Assembly (NCBI RefSeq): GCF_003115775.1
Contig: NZ_QEES01000002.1
Span: forward strand, 1,612,001-1,676,000
Origin: Cellulomonas sp. WB94
GTDB lineage: Bacteria; Actinomycetota; Actinomycetes; Actinomycetales; Cellulomonadaceae
Reading direction: 5' to 3'
DNA: 64,000 bases
The notes beneath the pieces were generated by a model. That model worked only from the letters and a program-made list of their open reading frames with translations, was not told the DNA's origin and did no database searches. Each line of letters starts with the position of its first letter. Position 1 is the first letter of the stretch. Made by a program: the position numbers and the translations under genes. Shown piece after piece: positions 26,989 through 32,236 of this stretch.

Positions 26989-27189
26989 GGGGGGCTCCGA
27001 ACTCGTCCTGGCCGCGCGGGTGGTTCCCACTCAGCCTGGCAGCAGCTGCGGGGCTGGTCAGACCTCCAGGAGGACCTTGATGGCGCGACGCTCGTCCATA
27101 GCCGTGTAGCCCTTGGCCGCCCGGTCGAGCGGGAGCGCGAGGTCGAAGACCTTGCCAGGGTCGATCACCCGGTCCCAGATGAGTAAGGG

Positions 27190-27397
27190 GCACGGGCTTG
27201 GTCGTTCGGTCGGTGAGATGAGAATGGTGGGGTCGCCCGGCGACGTCGCATGACTCTGGTGCGGTTGAGCCCGCAGATGAGTACGACGCGGGGGCTCGGG
27301 GTGTGTCGCATTGTTGCCGTTGAGCACGCGGGTCTGTCTCCGACCGCAAGGGCCCCTCCGGGCGGCGCCTGTCGCCGAGCTCTCGGAGGTGGTCGTG
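27190..27397 (+). ncRNA. Candidate bridge RNA of the IS110 element
   Basis: IS110 elements are known to encode a bridge RNA in a non-coding end that pairs with target and donor. Here the left end has a stem of GAGCCC (27267-27272) with GGGCTC (27292-27297). Its loop holds CAGATGAGT (27274-27282), identical to the target as it was before insertion (27176-27183 plus the T at 28708). A target-matching sequence in such a loop is what a guide would look like. The right-target and donor guides could not be assigned by eye. Confidence 0.45.
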
Positions 27398-28630
27398 ATG
27401 GAAGTGCTGGTTGAGCGGGTCGCTGGTCTGGACATCGGCAAGAAGATCGTCGTGGTCTGTGTGCGCATGCCCGGGCCCGGGGGCAGGCGGGTCTCCGAGA
27501 CGCGCACGTTCCGCACGATGACCCGGTCGCTGGGGTTGATGGCCGACTGGCTGGTCGAGTGCGGGGTCGAGCTGGCGGCGATGGAGTCGACCTCGACGTA
27601 CTGGAAGCCGGTGCTGTACTGCCTCGAAGAGCGGATGACGACCTGGCTGCTGAACGCGGCGCACATCAAGGCCGTGCCGGGACGCAAGTCCGACGTGCGG
27701 GACGCGGAGTGGATCGCCCAGCTCCTCGAGCATGGCCTGGTCGCCCCGTCGTTCGTCCCCGAGGCCCCGGTGCGCCGGCTGCGGAACCTGACCCGCTACC
27801 GGTTGCAGCTGCAAAGCGACCGGACCCGTGATGCCGGCCGGCTGGAGAAGTTGTTGGAGGACGCCTCGATCAAGATCTCCGCGGTCGCGTCGAACATCAC
27901 CGGGACGTCCTCACGGGCGATGCTGTCCGCGTTGGTCGACGGGCAGCGCGATCCGGTGGTGATGGCCGACCTGGCGCGCACCAAGCTGCGCCGCAAGATC
28001 CCCGACCTGGTCGAGGCCCTGACCGGGCACTTCGATGACCACCACGCACTGATCGTCGGTCAGCTGCTGGCCCGGATCGCCGCGACCGAGCAAGCCCTCG
28101 CCGACCTGGATTTGCACCTGGAGGTCGCGATGGCTCCCTGGGCGCACGAGATCGACCTGCTGACCACCATCCCGGGGGTCGGGCGGTTGGTCGCCTGGAC
28201 GGTCATCGCCGAGACCGGTGGGGACATGTCTCGGTTCCCCAGCCCCGGACACCTGGCTTCCTGGGCGGGGGTCGCACCCGCGATGCACGAGTCCGCCGGG
28301 CGTCGCCAACCGGTCGGCACCCGGCACGGGAACAGGTTCTTGACCTCGATGCTCGTCGAGGCCGCGCAGTCTGCCTCCCACACGAAGGACACCTATCTCG
28401 CCAGCCAGTTCGCGCACCTGACCTCTCGGCGCGGGCACAACCGTGCCGCGGTCGCGGTCGCGCACTCCATCCTCGTCTCGGCTTACTGGATGCTGGTCCG
28501 TGACCAGACCTACGTCGACCTCGGACCGGGCTGGCTCACCGACCACGCGGCCGAACAAGCCCGCACCCGCCGCCTGGTCAACCAGCTCGAGGCCCTCGGC
28601 CACACCGTCGTCCTCGACCCCGTCGCCTGA
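27398..28630 (+). CDS. IS110-family transposase (DEDD)
   Basis: A 410-residue DEDD transposase. The N-terminal RuvC-like domain has GLDIGKKIVVVC, MESTSTYWKPV and GRKSDVRDAEWIAQLL; the C-terminal Transposase_20 domain begins TTIPGVGRLVAWTVIAETGG and includes SWAGVAP. The frame is intact, so the element may be active. ATG 27398 follows GGAGGT by about eight bases. Opposite in direction to the gene it interrupts. Confidence 0.93.
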   Translation: MEVLVERVAGLDIGKKIVVVCVRMPGPGGRRVSETRTFRTMTRSLGLMADWLVECGVELAAMESTSTYWKPVLYCLEERMTTWLLNAAHIKAVPGRKSDVRDAEWIAQLLEHGLVAPSFVPEAPVRRLRNLTRYRLQLQSDRTRDAGRLEKLLEDASIKISAVASNITGTSSRAMLSALVDGQRDPVVMADLARTKLRRKIPDLVEALTGHFDDHHALIVGQLLARIAATEQALADLDLHLEVAMAPWAHEIDLLTTIPGVGRLVAWTVIAETGGDMSRFPSPGHLASWAGVAPAMHESAGRRQPVGTRHGNRFLTSMLVEAAQSASHTKDTYLASQFAHLTSRRGHNRAAVAVAHSILVSAYWMLVRDQTYVDLGPGWLTDHAAEQARTRRLVNQLEALGHTVVLDPVA

Positions 28631-29752
28631 CAGCCCCTCCCCATCAACGACCATCCGGGCTCCGCCCGGAGCGGTCGCGCGCCCGCTTCCGGACATTCTC
28701 GGGTCAGTTGAATCAGCTCGGGCAGGAACCGGCGAACCGGGGCTGGACCGCCGTGCAGGTGCACGCCGGAGAAGAACAGGTCCATGCCGTTGAGCTCGAC
28801 CCCGTAGGCCACCCCGACGTATCCGACGTGACCTCCAGGTCGCGTGGACCGGATGGCCTGCTCCATGGATTCTTGGGTACCGACCGCCTCGATGACGCTG
28901 TGCGCGCCCAGGCCGCCAGTCAGTTCCTTGATCCTGGCCACGCCGGCGTCACCGCGCTCCTCGACGATGTCGGTCGCGCCGAACTCACGGGCCAGCGCCT
29001 GCCGATCGCTGTGGCGCGACATCGCGATGATCCGGTCGGCGCCGAGATGCTTGGCAGCGAGAATTCCGAGCAGGCCGACCGCGCCGTCACCGACGACCGC
29101 GACGGTCTTCGCCGGACCGACCTTGGCAGCCACGGCCGCGAACCAGCCCGTGCCCAGCACATCAGAAGCTGCGAGCAGCGACGGGATCAGCTCTGGGTCG
29201 GGCATTCCAGGCGTCGCGACCAAGGTGCCGTCGGCGAGGGGGATGCGCACGAGCTCGGCCTGCGTGCCCATCGAACCCATGCCGATGTTGTGCACGCGCC
29301 GGGACTGGTAGCCGGCCTGGCAGATCTCGCAGGTGTTGTCCGATGCGAAGAACGAGCCGACCACGAAGTCGCCGATCTTGACGTTCTTGACCGAGTCACC
29401 GATCTGCTCCACGACGCCGACGTACTCGTGCCCCATGGGCGTGGGTCCGTCGAGCTTCTCGATGCCGCGGTAGGGCCACAGGTCCGACCCGCAGATGCAG
29501 ACGGCAGCTGTCCGGATGATCGCGTCGGTCGGTTCGAGAATCTGCGGGTCCGCGCGCTGCTCGACCCGGACGTCACCGGGCGCGTGCATGACTACTCCGC
29601 GCATGAAGTACTCCATCGCTAGAAGGTGCTTGAGCTGGAACCGGCCACTGCGAGGTCCGGCCTCCCCTAGTGAAACGCGCGGTCGTGTGTGCGAGGGAGG
29701 CCGAACGTATGGGGGGGACGAGCTCAACCTCCCTTCCCCTGGTGGCGGGGCC

Positions 29753-30826: not shown

Positions 30827-32236
30827 TGGCGTCCCGTGAGGTGGTGTAGTTCTCGATCTTCTTCGTCGTGGTGACCACGACGGAGAAGGCCATCGTGCGA
30901 TGGTCGGTGAGACCGGACTAGGGAACTCACGGAAGGACATCGCACGATGGCTATGGACCAGTCTGCCCTGCTCGACCTGCTCGCCGCATTGAAGGACACC
31001 GACGTCAGCGACCGGATCCGGACCGCGACCGAGCACCTGTATCAAGAGCTGATCGACGCCGAGGCGACCGCGGTGATCGGCGCCGGCCCCTGGCAGCGCA
31101 CGCAGGCCCGCACGGCGTTGCGCAACGGGTCGCGGGACCGGGTGTTGACGACCACGGCCGGGGACCTGGACCTGCGGATCCCCAAGCTGCGCACCGGGTC
31201 GTTCTTCCCGTCCTTGCTCGAGCGGCGCCGCCGGGTCGACCAGGCACTGTTCGCGGTCGTGATGGAGGCCTACCTGCACGGGGTCAGCACCAGGAAGGTC
31301 GACGACCTGGTCAGGGCCCTGGGGGCCGACACCGGGATCTCCAAGAGTGAGGTCTCCCGGATCTGCGCGGGCCTGGACGAGGAGGTCTCGGCGTTCCGTG
31401 ACCGGTCCCTGGCCGACGCGGGGTTCCCCTACGTGTTCCTGGACGCGACGTACTGCAAGGCCAGGGTCGGGCGCCGGGTGGTGTCCCAGGCCGTGGTCAT
31501 CGCCACCGGGGTCCGCGCCGACGGGCACCGTGAGGTCCTCGGCTTCGACGTCGGAGACTCCGAGAACGGCGCCTTCTGGACCAGCTTCCTGCGCTCGCTC
31601 AAGGCCCGCGGGCTGGGCGGTGTGGCGCTGGTCATCTCCGACGCCCACGAGGGCCTGAAGACCGCGATCGCCTCGGTCCTGCTCGGCTCGTCCTGGCAAC
31701 GCTGCCGGGTCCACTTCACCCGCAACGTCCTCGACGCGGTGTCCAAGACGAACGCCGAGATGGTCGCCGCCGCGATCCGCACGATCTTCGCCCAACCCGA
31801 CGCCGCCCACGTCGCCGAGCAGTTCGAAGTCATCGCGACCATGCTGACCCGCTCCCACCCGAAGGTCGGGCACATGCTCACCGACGCCCGCGAGGACCTG
31901 CTCGCCTTCACCGCGTTCCCCGCCAGCCACTGGAAGAAGATCTGGTCGACCAACCCCCTGGAACGACTGAACAAGGAGGTCAAACGCCGCACCGACGTCG
32001 TGGGGGTCTTCCCCAACCCCGCCGCCCTGCTGCGCCTGGCCGGCGCCGTCCTGGTCGAGGCCCACGACGAATGGGCCGCCACCGACCGCCGCTACCTATC
32101 CGAGAACTCCATGGCCCAACTCGCCACCATGACCCTGACGACCCAGGAGGTGGACCACACCGAACTCCTCACGGCATGATCTGAGCACTGACCCGCACGG
32201 TGTCGAGAAACTCCACCACTCAGCGGGACGTCACCG
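30827..32236 (+). mobile_element. IS256-family insertion sequence
   Basis: About 1.41 kb. Imperfect terminal inverted repeats: GTGGTGTAGTTCTCGA near the left end and GTGGTGGAGTTTCTCGA at the right end (reverse complement), preceded by matching CGTCCCG blocks. The flanks share CCGTGTCGG (30818-30826 and 32237-32245), consistent with a target duplication. Because the left repeat could start at 30824, the left edge is uncertain by three bases. Confidence 0.8.
30947..32179 (+). CDS. IS256-family transposase
   Basis: A 410-residue mutator-type transposase: RNGSRDRVLTTTAGDLDLRI, GVSTRKVDDLVRALG, the first catalytic Asp in YVFLDATYCKARV, the second in VISDAHEGLKTAI, and the catalytic Glu in WSTNPLERLNKEVKRR. 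The frame is intact. GGAAGGA precedes ATG 30947. Confidence 0.95.
   Translation: MAMDQSALLDLLAALKDTDVSDRIRTATEHLYQELIDAEATAVIGAGPWQRTQARTALRNGSRDRVLTTTAGDLDLRIPKLRTGSFFPSLLERRRRVDQALFAVVMEAYLHGVSTRKVDDLVRALGADTGISKSEVSRICAGLDEEVSAFRDRSLADAGFPYVFLDATYCKARVGRRVVSQAVVIATGVRADGHREVLGFDVGDSENGAFWTSFLRSLKARGLGGVALVISDAHEGLKTAIASVLLGSSWQRCRVHFTRNVLDAVSKTNAEMVAAAIRTIFAQPDAAHVAEQFEVIATMLTRSHPKVGHMLTDAREDLLAFTAFPASHWKKIWSTNPLERLNKEVKRRTDVVGVFPNPAALLRLAGAVLVEAHDEWAATDRRYLSENSMAQLATMTLTTQEVDHTELLTA

Follow-up and report, generated by a model that had tools for sequence, protein, structure and literature searches.

How does an IS110-family element choose the site into which it inserts? The question is raised by a 64,000-nt stretch of the genome of Cellulomonas sp. 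WB94 (NCBI RefSeq assembly GCF_003115775.1, contig NZ_QEES01000002.1, positions 1,612,001 to 1,676,000 of the forward strand; henceforth the window), in which such an element splits an alcohol dehydrogenase (ADH) gene at CAGATGAG and carries the same bases again in its own non-coding left end. The initial annotation took this end for a bridge RNA with a readable target guide; a right-target guide, a donor loop and the order of the guides had no part in that proposal. The guide-RNA reading itself is upheld by our comparison with relatives, which leads us to suggest, with a probability of about 0.87, that the left end (approximately 27222-27384) encodes a bridge RNA that works in an IS621-like manner, but with the target guides in the order right-then-left in an RNA located upstream of the transposase gene. 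With readable guides, insertion sites would become predictable from sequence.

The element, its copies and its relatives

The transposase shows the DEDD domain and the C-terminal Transposase_20 domain expected of the IS110 family (PF01548, E-value 6.9e-23; PF02371, E-value 1.4e-21), and its D, E, D and D motifs could be aligned. At the C-terminal G--P----SG motif (PMC11187229) it reads GVAPAMHESAG, with the Ser kept and Ala next to it; SA is found in 26 of 30 clade rows and SG in four (L026, L034, L046, L030). The long non-coding region that IS110 elements carry upstream of the transposase gene measures 214 nt here, beginning at 27184 and reaching as far as the ATG at 27398, and on the right side 77 nt separate the stop codon from the end of the core. 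A second transposase, of the Mutator/IS256 type (PF00872, E-value 1.6e-135), is encoded at 30947-32179, approximately 2.2 kb to the right of the element.

Joining 27183 to 28708 gives a single open ADH frame of 381 aa, whose alignment to PDB 4cpd is gapless at the joint, so the element boundary and the crossover position given in the initial annotation are right. Two further copies are present in the same genome, and a transposase search of seven genomes of the genus found the element in this genome only. L005, identical to the window copy, has inserted close to the 3' end of a transposase frame of IS5 type (named from sequence), and joining across its empty site restores the host frame; L006 is 98% identical, has a broken transposase frame, and lies in or just upstream of an open frame. 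With a slash at each junction, the copies read CCCAGATGAG/TAAGG ... GGGTCAG/TTGAATC (window), TCCAGATGAG/TAAGG ... GGGTCAG/GGTGGCG (L005) and GCAAGACGAG/TAAGG ... GGGTCAG/TCCCGAC (L006). Because L005 has G and not T to the right of the core, the common core narrows to AG; the three sets of junctions therefore point to an AG core, a left target that is mostly kept and a right target that is variable. In a table of 42 insertions, described below, the core is AG in 40 rows and TG in L009 and L032.

Table 1. Features of the element and of its predicted bridge RNA (positions within the window)
Feature	Position	Strand	Remarks
IS110-family element	27184..28707	+	1524 bp, one AG core copy counted (right end); from three-copy comparison and empty-site frame
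Left target CAGATGAG, including core AG	27176..27183	+	copy comparison, empty-site frame
Right junction: core AG, then right target TTGAATC	28706..28714	+	
Left donor = element right end CGGGTCAG	28700..28707	+	
DEDD/IS110 transposase, 410 aa (PF01548, PF02371)	27398..28630	+	
Zinc-type alcohol dehydrogenase, N-terminal part, interrupted	28708..29616	-	start codon assumed; C-terminal part left of 27184
Left subterminal inverted repeat GAGAATG	27220..27226	+	begins at element base 37
Right subterminal inverted repeat CATTCTC	28694..28700	+	5 nt before core
Bridge RNA as set by covariance model R1	27222..27384	+	133.9 bits, E 3.7e-27; one of the model's 31 sequences; predicted ends
P1 closing helix, 5' arm	27232..27238	+	pairs with 27360-27366; double changes at all 7 pairs
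P2 target-loop helix, 5' arm CGTC	27244..27247	+	pairs with 27285-27288
Putative right-target guide region CATGACT	27249..27255	+	CT = core counterpart; scan peak, permutation tests
Hairpin between target guides (TGGTGC...GCCCG)	27257..27273	+	consensus fold
Putative left-target guide CAGATGAG	27274..27281	+	own-versus-other guide tests, position identities
P2 target-loop helix, 3' arm GACG	27285..27288	+	
P3 donor-loop helix, 5' arm	27291..27297	+	pairs with 27350-27356
Donor-loop 5' strand, expected right-donor guide site	27302..27311	+	position from consensus fold
Hairpin between donor-loop strands (TGTTGC...GCACG)	27312..27328	+	consensus fold
Putative left-donor guide CGGGTCTG	27329..27336	+	7/8 match to element right end CGGGTCAG
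P3 donor-loop helix, 3' arm	27350..27356	+	
P1 closing helix, 3' arm	27360..27366	+	

Transposase searches of 221 genomes of the family, 396 of the order, 394 of the class and 396 of the phylum yielded relatives of 46-87% identity; a contig scan added one more (72% identity), 16 plasmid records were taken for the table, viral contigs held no relatives, and two more searches around the relatives brought nothing new. The resulting table, its sequences verified against the loci, comprises 42 insertions, 12 of which belong to the window's own clade (at least 59% identity). Duplicates (L001-L004, L014) were omitted, as were L010 (right end not found), L020 (right flank at the contig end), L022 (right flank formed by the next copy), L024 (left end without RNA) and L051-L058 (distant, used for comparison). 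Six rows have no left target (L012, L016, L018, L027, L028 and L031, truncated or not placed; in L018, L028 and L031 it was not placeable), and that of L044 is too short for scoring. To locate the right ends, the donor guide or homology was used.

A few of the insertions deserve a remark of their own. In L043 approximately 44 bases of the right end (ending CATTTTCGGATTAG) are present twice in tandem with one difference, and the row may therefore carry the wrong right flank. At the left junction of L039, 14 nt (TATTTACGCGTCAG) are identical to the right end of L040, a different IS110 element; L039 may thus have used the terminus of a relative as its insertion site. L022 and L027 (G665) are near-identical IS110 copies in tandem, approximately 1.7 kb apart.

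Subterminal inverted repeats were compared in 26 elements. In 18 of them the repeat starts 32-39 bases into the element and recurs 4-5 nt before the right core, with a length of 7-8 bp in 11 elements, 6 bp in six and 5 bp in one; variants such as GAGAAT, GAAAAT, GTAAAT, GAAACT and similar are mirrored at the right end. The repeat is shorter or shifted in L046 and L023, measures 14 bp and lies 2 nt before the core in L029, and in five elements (L032, L009, L019, L008, L048) the longest repeat is elsewhere. Over the 26 elements own ends score 6.85 and swapped ends 5.64 (0 of 20000 permutations).

The probable left-target guide and the proposed RNA that holds it

The 9-mer CAGATGAGT has exactly two occurrences in the window: one at 27176-27184, made up of the target and the first base of the element, and one at 27274-27282 in the left end; 0.23 occurrences are expected by chance, and none of 100 shuffles contained two. 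Its presence in the non-coding left end is thus as first described, but the terminal hairpin loop to which it had been assigned is not: the consensus fold places it on the 3' strand of an internal loop. The 8-mer CAGATGAG taken alone is expected 1.76 times in the window, which is the point in favour of a chance match and the reason why the case depends on position and on homologues. A chance match is hardly credible given the homologues, as the own guide outperforms those of others both in 41 table rows and in 38 held-out insertions (0 of 20000 permutations in either set). A second AGATGAG (27216-27222) was considered as a guide and rejected: the sibling copy L006 reads GGATGAG there, and the motif overlaps GATGAGAATGG, which is near-constant in close relatives with differing guides.

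Guide and left target agree at positions -3 to -7 in 34, 32, 33, 32 and 31 of the 35 scorable table rows, counts for which the left ends had been placed partly by means of the guide. Since guides had served to place many ends, a permutation test of own versus other guides was added on the left flanks. In this test the 8-nt guide matches its own left flank at 6.73 of 8 positions, as against 5.45 for the guides of others (n=41; 0 of 20000); with one element per cluster the values are 6.79 and 5.43 (n=29; 0 of 20000), and within the window's clade the difference is weaker (6.64 and 6.16, n=11; 368 of 20000). The held-out set of 38 insertions was found via model R1 (see below) and includes 20 distinct guides, several of them multi-copy, as well as the distant L056; here the scores are 6.53 and 5.49 of 8 (0 of 20000), or 6.60 and 5.46 with one insertion per guide (n=20; 0 of 20000), and own scores of 5, 6, 7 and 8 were obtained in 5, 12, 17 and 4 insertions, respectively.

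Individual relatives illustrate how the loop follows the target: guide and target read AGAAGAG in L011, AGACGAG in L015 and CAGGTCAG in L033. The three copies in this genome, compared for the same loop at unrelated targets, share one loop and have left targets CAGATGAG, CAGATGAG and AAGACGAG. Mismatches between guide and target within the window's clade number two of eight in L017, both of the U-G type, and two in L006, one of them U-G; in L007 there are also two, both plain. Among the insertions not in the table, a G875 element present in three copies (L123-L125) combines target CGCTTAG with guide TCGCTTAG, and nine near-identical G634 copies (L091-L099) have AGCAAG in common and guide GAAGCAAG. 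A further group is characterized by the guide AGGTCAG, and the target likewise reads AGGTCAG in L117, L121, L126, L129 and L130; the group also contains L118, where guide and target are both AGGCCAG, L122, which combines guide AGGTCAG with target AGGCCAG, and L128, which fits its left target poorly (5 of 8). These comparisons support the initial view of a bridge RNA with a readable target guide, in that the candidate loop tracks the target among relatives.

By tblastn within the fetched stretches, five of the bridge-RNA left ends (L117, L118, L119, L121, L122) have no transposase and four (L120, L126, L127, L128) have only transposase pieces. All nine may be decayed copies, or may depend on a transposase supplied in trans.

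The left end has no match in Rfam and its single-sequence fold is no better than that of shuffles (z 0.56), so evidence for a structured RNA must come from relatives. A promoter and terminator scan gave no result, with no sigma-70-like promoter. An alignment of 31 sequences (A1, which left out table rows L013, L025, L043, L044, L047, L049 and L050, and copies) yielded a consensus fold of 30 pairs, 20 of which show double changes. In an arm-swap test of 29 elements, scores fall from 10.66 to 7.44 for P1 and from 8.93 to 6.84 for P3 on exchange of arms (0 of 20000 each), and P2 shows no effect (16230 of 20000); support for P2 comes from double changes, one pair going from U-A to C-G in 9 of 31 sequences. 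Sequence comparison shows a single closing helix, P1, that encloses a target loop and a donor loop, both of them internal. The covariation model across homologues that the initial annotation had called for gives a covarying fold around both loops, and sequence comparison thereby predicts the structured RNA with target loop and donor loop that is expected of a bridge RNA.

The covariance model R1 matches nine clade loci outside A1 (L010, L013, L020, L025, L043, L044, L047, L049, L050; E 2e-22 to 3e-7) and the distant L056 (E 2e-9) and L052 (E 2e-5). For distant L055 the E-value is 0.086 (0.0077 in a smaller search), and the distant L051, L053, L054, L057 and L058 gave no match up to E 1. Across this genome R1 has three strong matches, one before each transposase copy, the next being at E 0.41 and 0.75; in the window there are three stray matches (E 0.28-0.84). 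In the class sample 15 of 148 genomes, this one included, contain a match at E<=1e-6, and in the family of G665 10 of 35 do at E<=1e-10.

The two hairpins within the loops are near-repeats of each other (TGGTGC..GAGCCCG at 27257-27273, TGTTGC..GAGCACG at 27312-27328), with many invariant or nearly invariant columns among the 31 sequences. Perhaps they form a protein-binding motif.

An RNA would be superfluous if the shared CAGATGAGT were a repeat at the DNA level, either a protein site or a trace of the target, and the left end were a leader or regulator of the transposase. The ordinary single-sequence fold fits such a view; it is nevertheless very improbable given the compensatory changes in P1, P2 and P3, and given loops that track target and donor at separate places within a conserved scaffold.

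The putative right-target guide, the donor loop and the adjoining bases

In this clade, complementarity to the right target is seen in the bases just 5' of the conserved TGGTGC, which precede the end of the left guide by approximately 25 nt: at the non-core positions +1 to +4 we counted 95 Watson-Crick pairs of 168, against 46.95+/-5.8 after permutation (0 of 20000). When each 80% cluster contributes a single element (n=29), the count is 67-76 against 33.5 (20 draws, 0 of 2000 in every one); elements from outside the window's clade give 69 of 120 against 37.3 (0 of 20000), and inside that clade the signal is weak (26 of 48 against 20.65; 484 of 20000; 12 insertions).

In the 42-row table the right-guide offsets had been chosen manually and with knowledge of the right flank; a scan was therefore run with an automatic anchor that takes no account of the right target. 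It covered 220 offsets, on either side, in 41 elements (L044 dropped for lack of an anchor, L025 retained with a misplaced one), and a single peak emerged, directly 5' of TGG (z 7.5); z reached 3.7 in the next region, at -32, and no more than 2.6 on the 3' side of the left guide. The peak is thus 5' of the left guide and not 3' of it, as the IS621-type order would have it, and corresponds to the IS1111-type order, in which the top-strand guide precedes the bottom-strand guide. A loop without any right guide, our first reading from three copies with differing right flanks, was rejected on account of this peak.

The fit of single elements is uneven. Long right matches occur in L037 (AGATCCT), L013 (AGGGGT) and L026 (AGGCGG); at +1 to +3 the window copy forms a single Watson-Crick pair plus two G-T pairs, and L005 has no match at +1 to +4. 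Other poor rows include L021, L043, L044, L025 and L050; the near-identical L021 and L026 (99.87%) fit at 1 of 4 and 4 of 4 positions, respectively. Of three right flanks outside the table one fits (L080, 3 of 4) and two, L130 and L131, do not, and in L056 the right-target complement CCATT is present, by eye, two bases away from the core CT.

One could suppose from such rows that the bridge RNA has a left-target guide only, the right half of the target being unread or read elsewhere, and that the complementarity on the 5' side reflects self-pairing of ACT and AGT within the loop or the relatedness of the elements. The weak signal in the window's clade, the lack of a match in L005, the single fit outside the table, and a consensus fold of 10 close relatives in which both guides pair with each other all speak for this. 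We consider it unlikely, as the tests were confined to non-core positions, which lie outside the ACT/AGT self-pairing, the excess persists outside the window's clade, the scan peak is isolated and long matches exist. In this clade the right-target guide thus seems to lie 5' of the left-target guide.

The second loop agrees with the donor end of the element at positions -3 to -7 in 42, 40, 41, 40 and 42 of 42 rows, and the donor guide scores 7.05 of 8 against its own right end and 5.85 against swapped ones (n=42; 0 of 20000). Guide and right end agree in the core in 32 of 42 rows; in 10 of the 12 rows of the window's clade the guide has TG where the right end has AG, the first core base disagreeing. 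Two properties of a bridge RNA are accordingly found together, a left-target guide that tracks the target and a left-donor guide that tracks the donor. A covariation search of the 42-row table gave no clear signal for a right-donor guide.

The bases that follow the left guides also carry a signal. In the window, TA at 27282-27283, directly after the left-target guide, equals the first two bases of the element in handshake-like fashion; the same holds for the first and the second base in 33 and 31 of 36 elements (0 of 20000 each). In 24 of 42 rows the left-donor guide is followed by a base identical to the first one of the right target (0 of 20000).

Proposed working of the RNA and comparison with known systems

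We propose that the transposase binds the bridge RNA and pairs it with the circular element and the target. By sequence comparison, the 3' strand of the target loop reads the left half of the target with the AG core and would pair with the bottom strand, and the 5' strand (CATGACT) seems to read the core together with the bases that begin the right half and would pair with the top strand; the 3' strand of the donor loop reads the right end of the element. The left and right guides of one loop would thereby pair with opposite strands around AG, where strand exchange would take place without target duplication. The two bases 3' of the left-target guide mostly equal the start of the element, and the single base 3' of the left-donor guide tends to equal the first right-target base; both look as if they were paired after strand exchange. 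From the swapped guide order and the position of these handshake-like bases we conjecture that the bottom strands may be exchanged first.

Several features of this candidate RNA recall the bridge RNA of IS621 (PMC11208160, PMC11208158): a left-end RNA with target and donor loops, a DEDD transposase, a left guide of approximately 7 nt plus core pairing to the bottom strand, a short right guide, and handshake or handshake-like bases. In IS621 the left-target guide (A50-U58) precedes the right-target guide (G77-G80), and the handshake guides come after the right guides (81-82, 166-167; Hiraizumi 2024, PMC11208158). Here, by contrast, the right guide would be 5', it is the left guides that are followed by handshake-like bases, AG serves as the core (in 40 of 42 rows) and the closing helix P1 joins both loops. 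Besides describing the IS621 guides, Durrant 2024 (PMC11208160) placed the RNAs of IS1111 elements in the right end; ISAar29 is among six predicted bridge RNAs in a figure legend of that paper.

With the IS1111-type seekRNAs (ISEc11, ISPa11, ISKpn4; Siddiquee 2024, PMC11187229), in which the top-strand match is 5' of the bottom-strand match, our candidate appears to share a 5' top-strand guide and subterminal inverted repeats, the IS1111 repeats measuring 7-17 bp, that of the window 7 bp and those of 11 of 26 elements 7-8 bp. It differs from them in its non-coding region, which is upstream of the transposase gene and not, as usual in IS1111, downstream, and in its transposase of 410 aa, compared with 330-350 aa in IS1111 (PMC11187229). 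ISEc21, the sole IS110 RNA whose testing that paper describes in the parts cited here, has the top-strand match 3' of the bottom-strand match; its seekRNA resembles ours in the upstream non-coding region and the absence of target duplication, but the guide order is opposite and the transposase has 358 aa. In transposase length and upstream non-coding region the window's element agrees with the IS110 subgroup proper, which includes IS110 itself and has transposases of 395-455 aa, and for which the same parts of PMC11187229 report no tested RNA. With the annotated element ISArsp3 (L048), a relative, the window's transposase shares 47% identity.

According to the parts of the published work considered here, guide order is tied to family, right-then-left in IS1111 and left-then-right in IS110 (ISEc21, IS621). 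What would be new here is a right-target guide 5' of the left-target guide in an upstream RNA; among the titles listed by a literature search, with most subscription papers and preprints outside its scope, none describes an upstream RNA and a long transposase combined with the IS1111-like order. If the clade of approximately 410-aa transposases does break the rule, guide order and RNA position would have evolved separately, the scheme of strand exchange may differ, and a separate scaffold, mostly GC-rich, actinobacterial and with AG or TG cores, becomes available for comparison with IS621. We lean towards regarding the left-end RNAs of this long-transposase IS110 clade as a third architecture, with an IS1111-like order in an IS110-like upstream RNA, a three-way junction on one helix, and handshake bases on the left guides; such a clade would link the two known arrangements of the family, possibly with the bottom strands going first.
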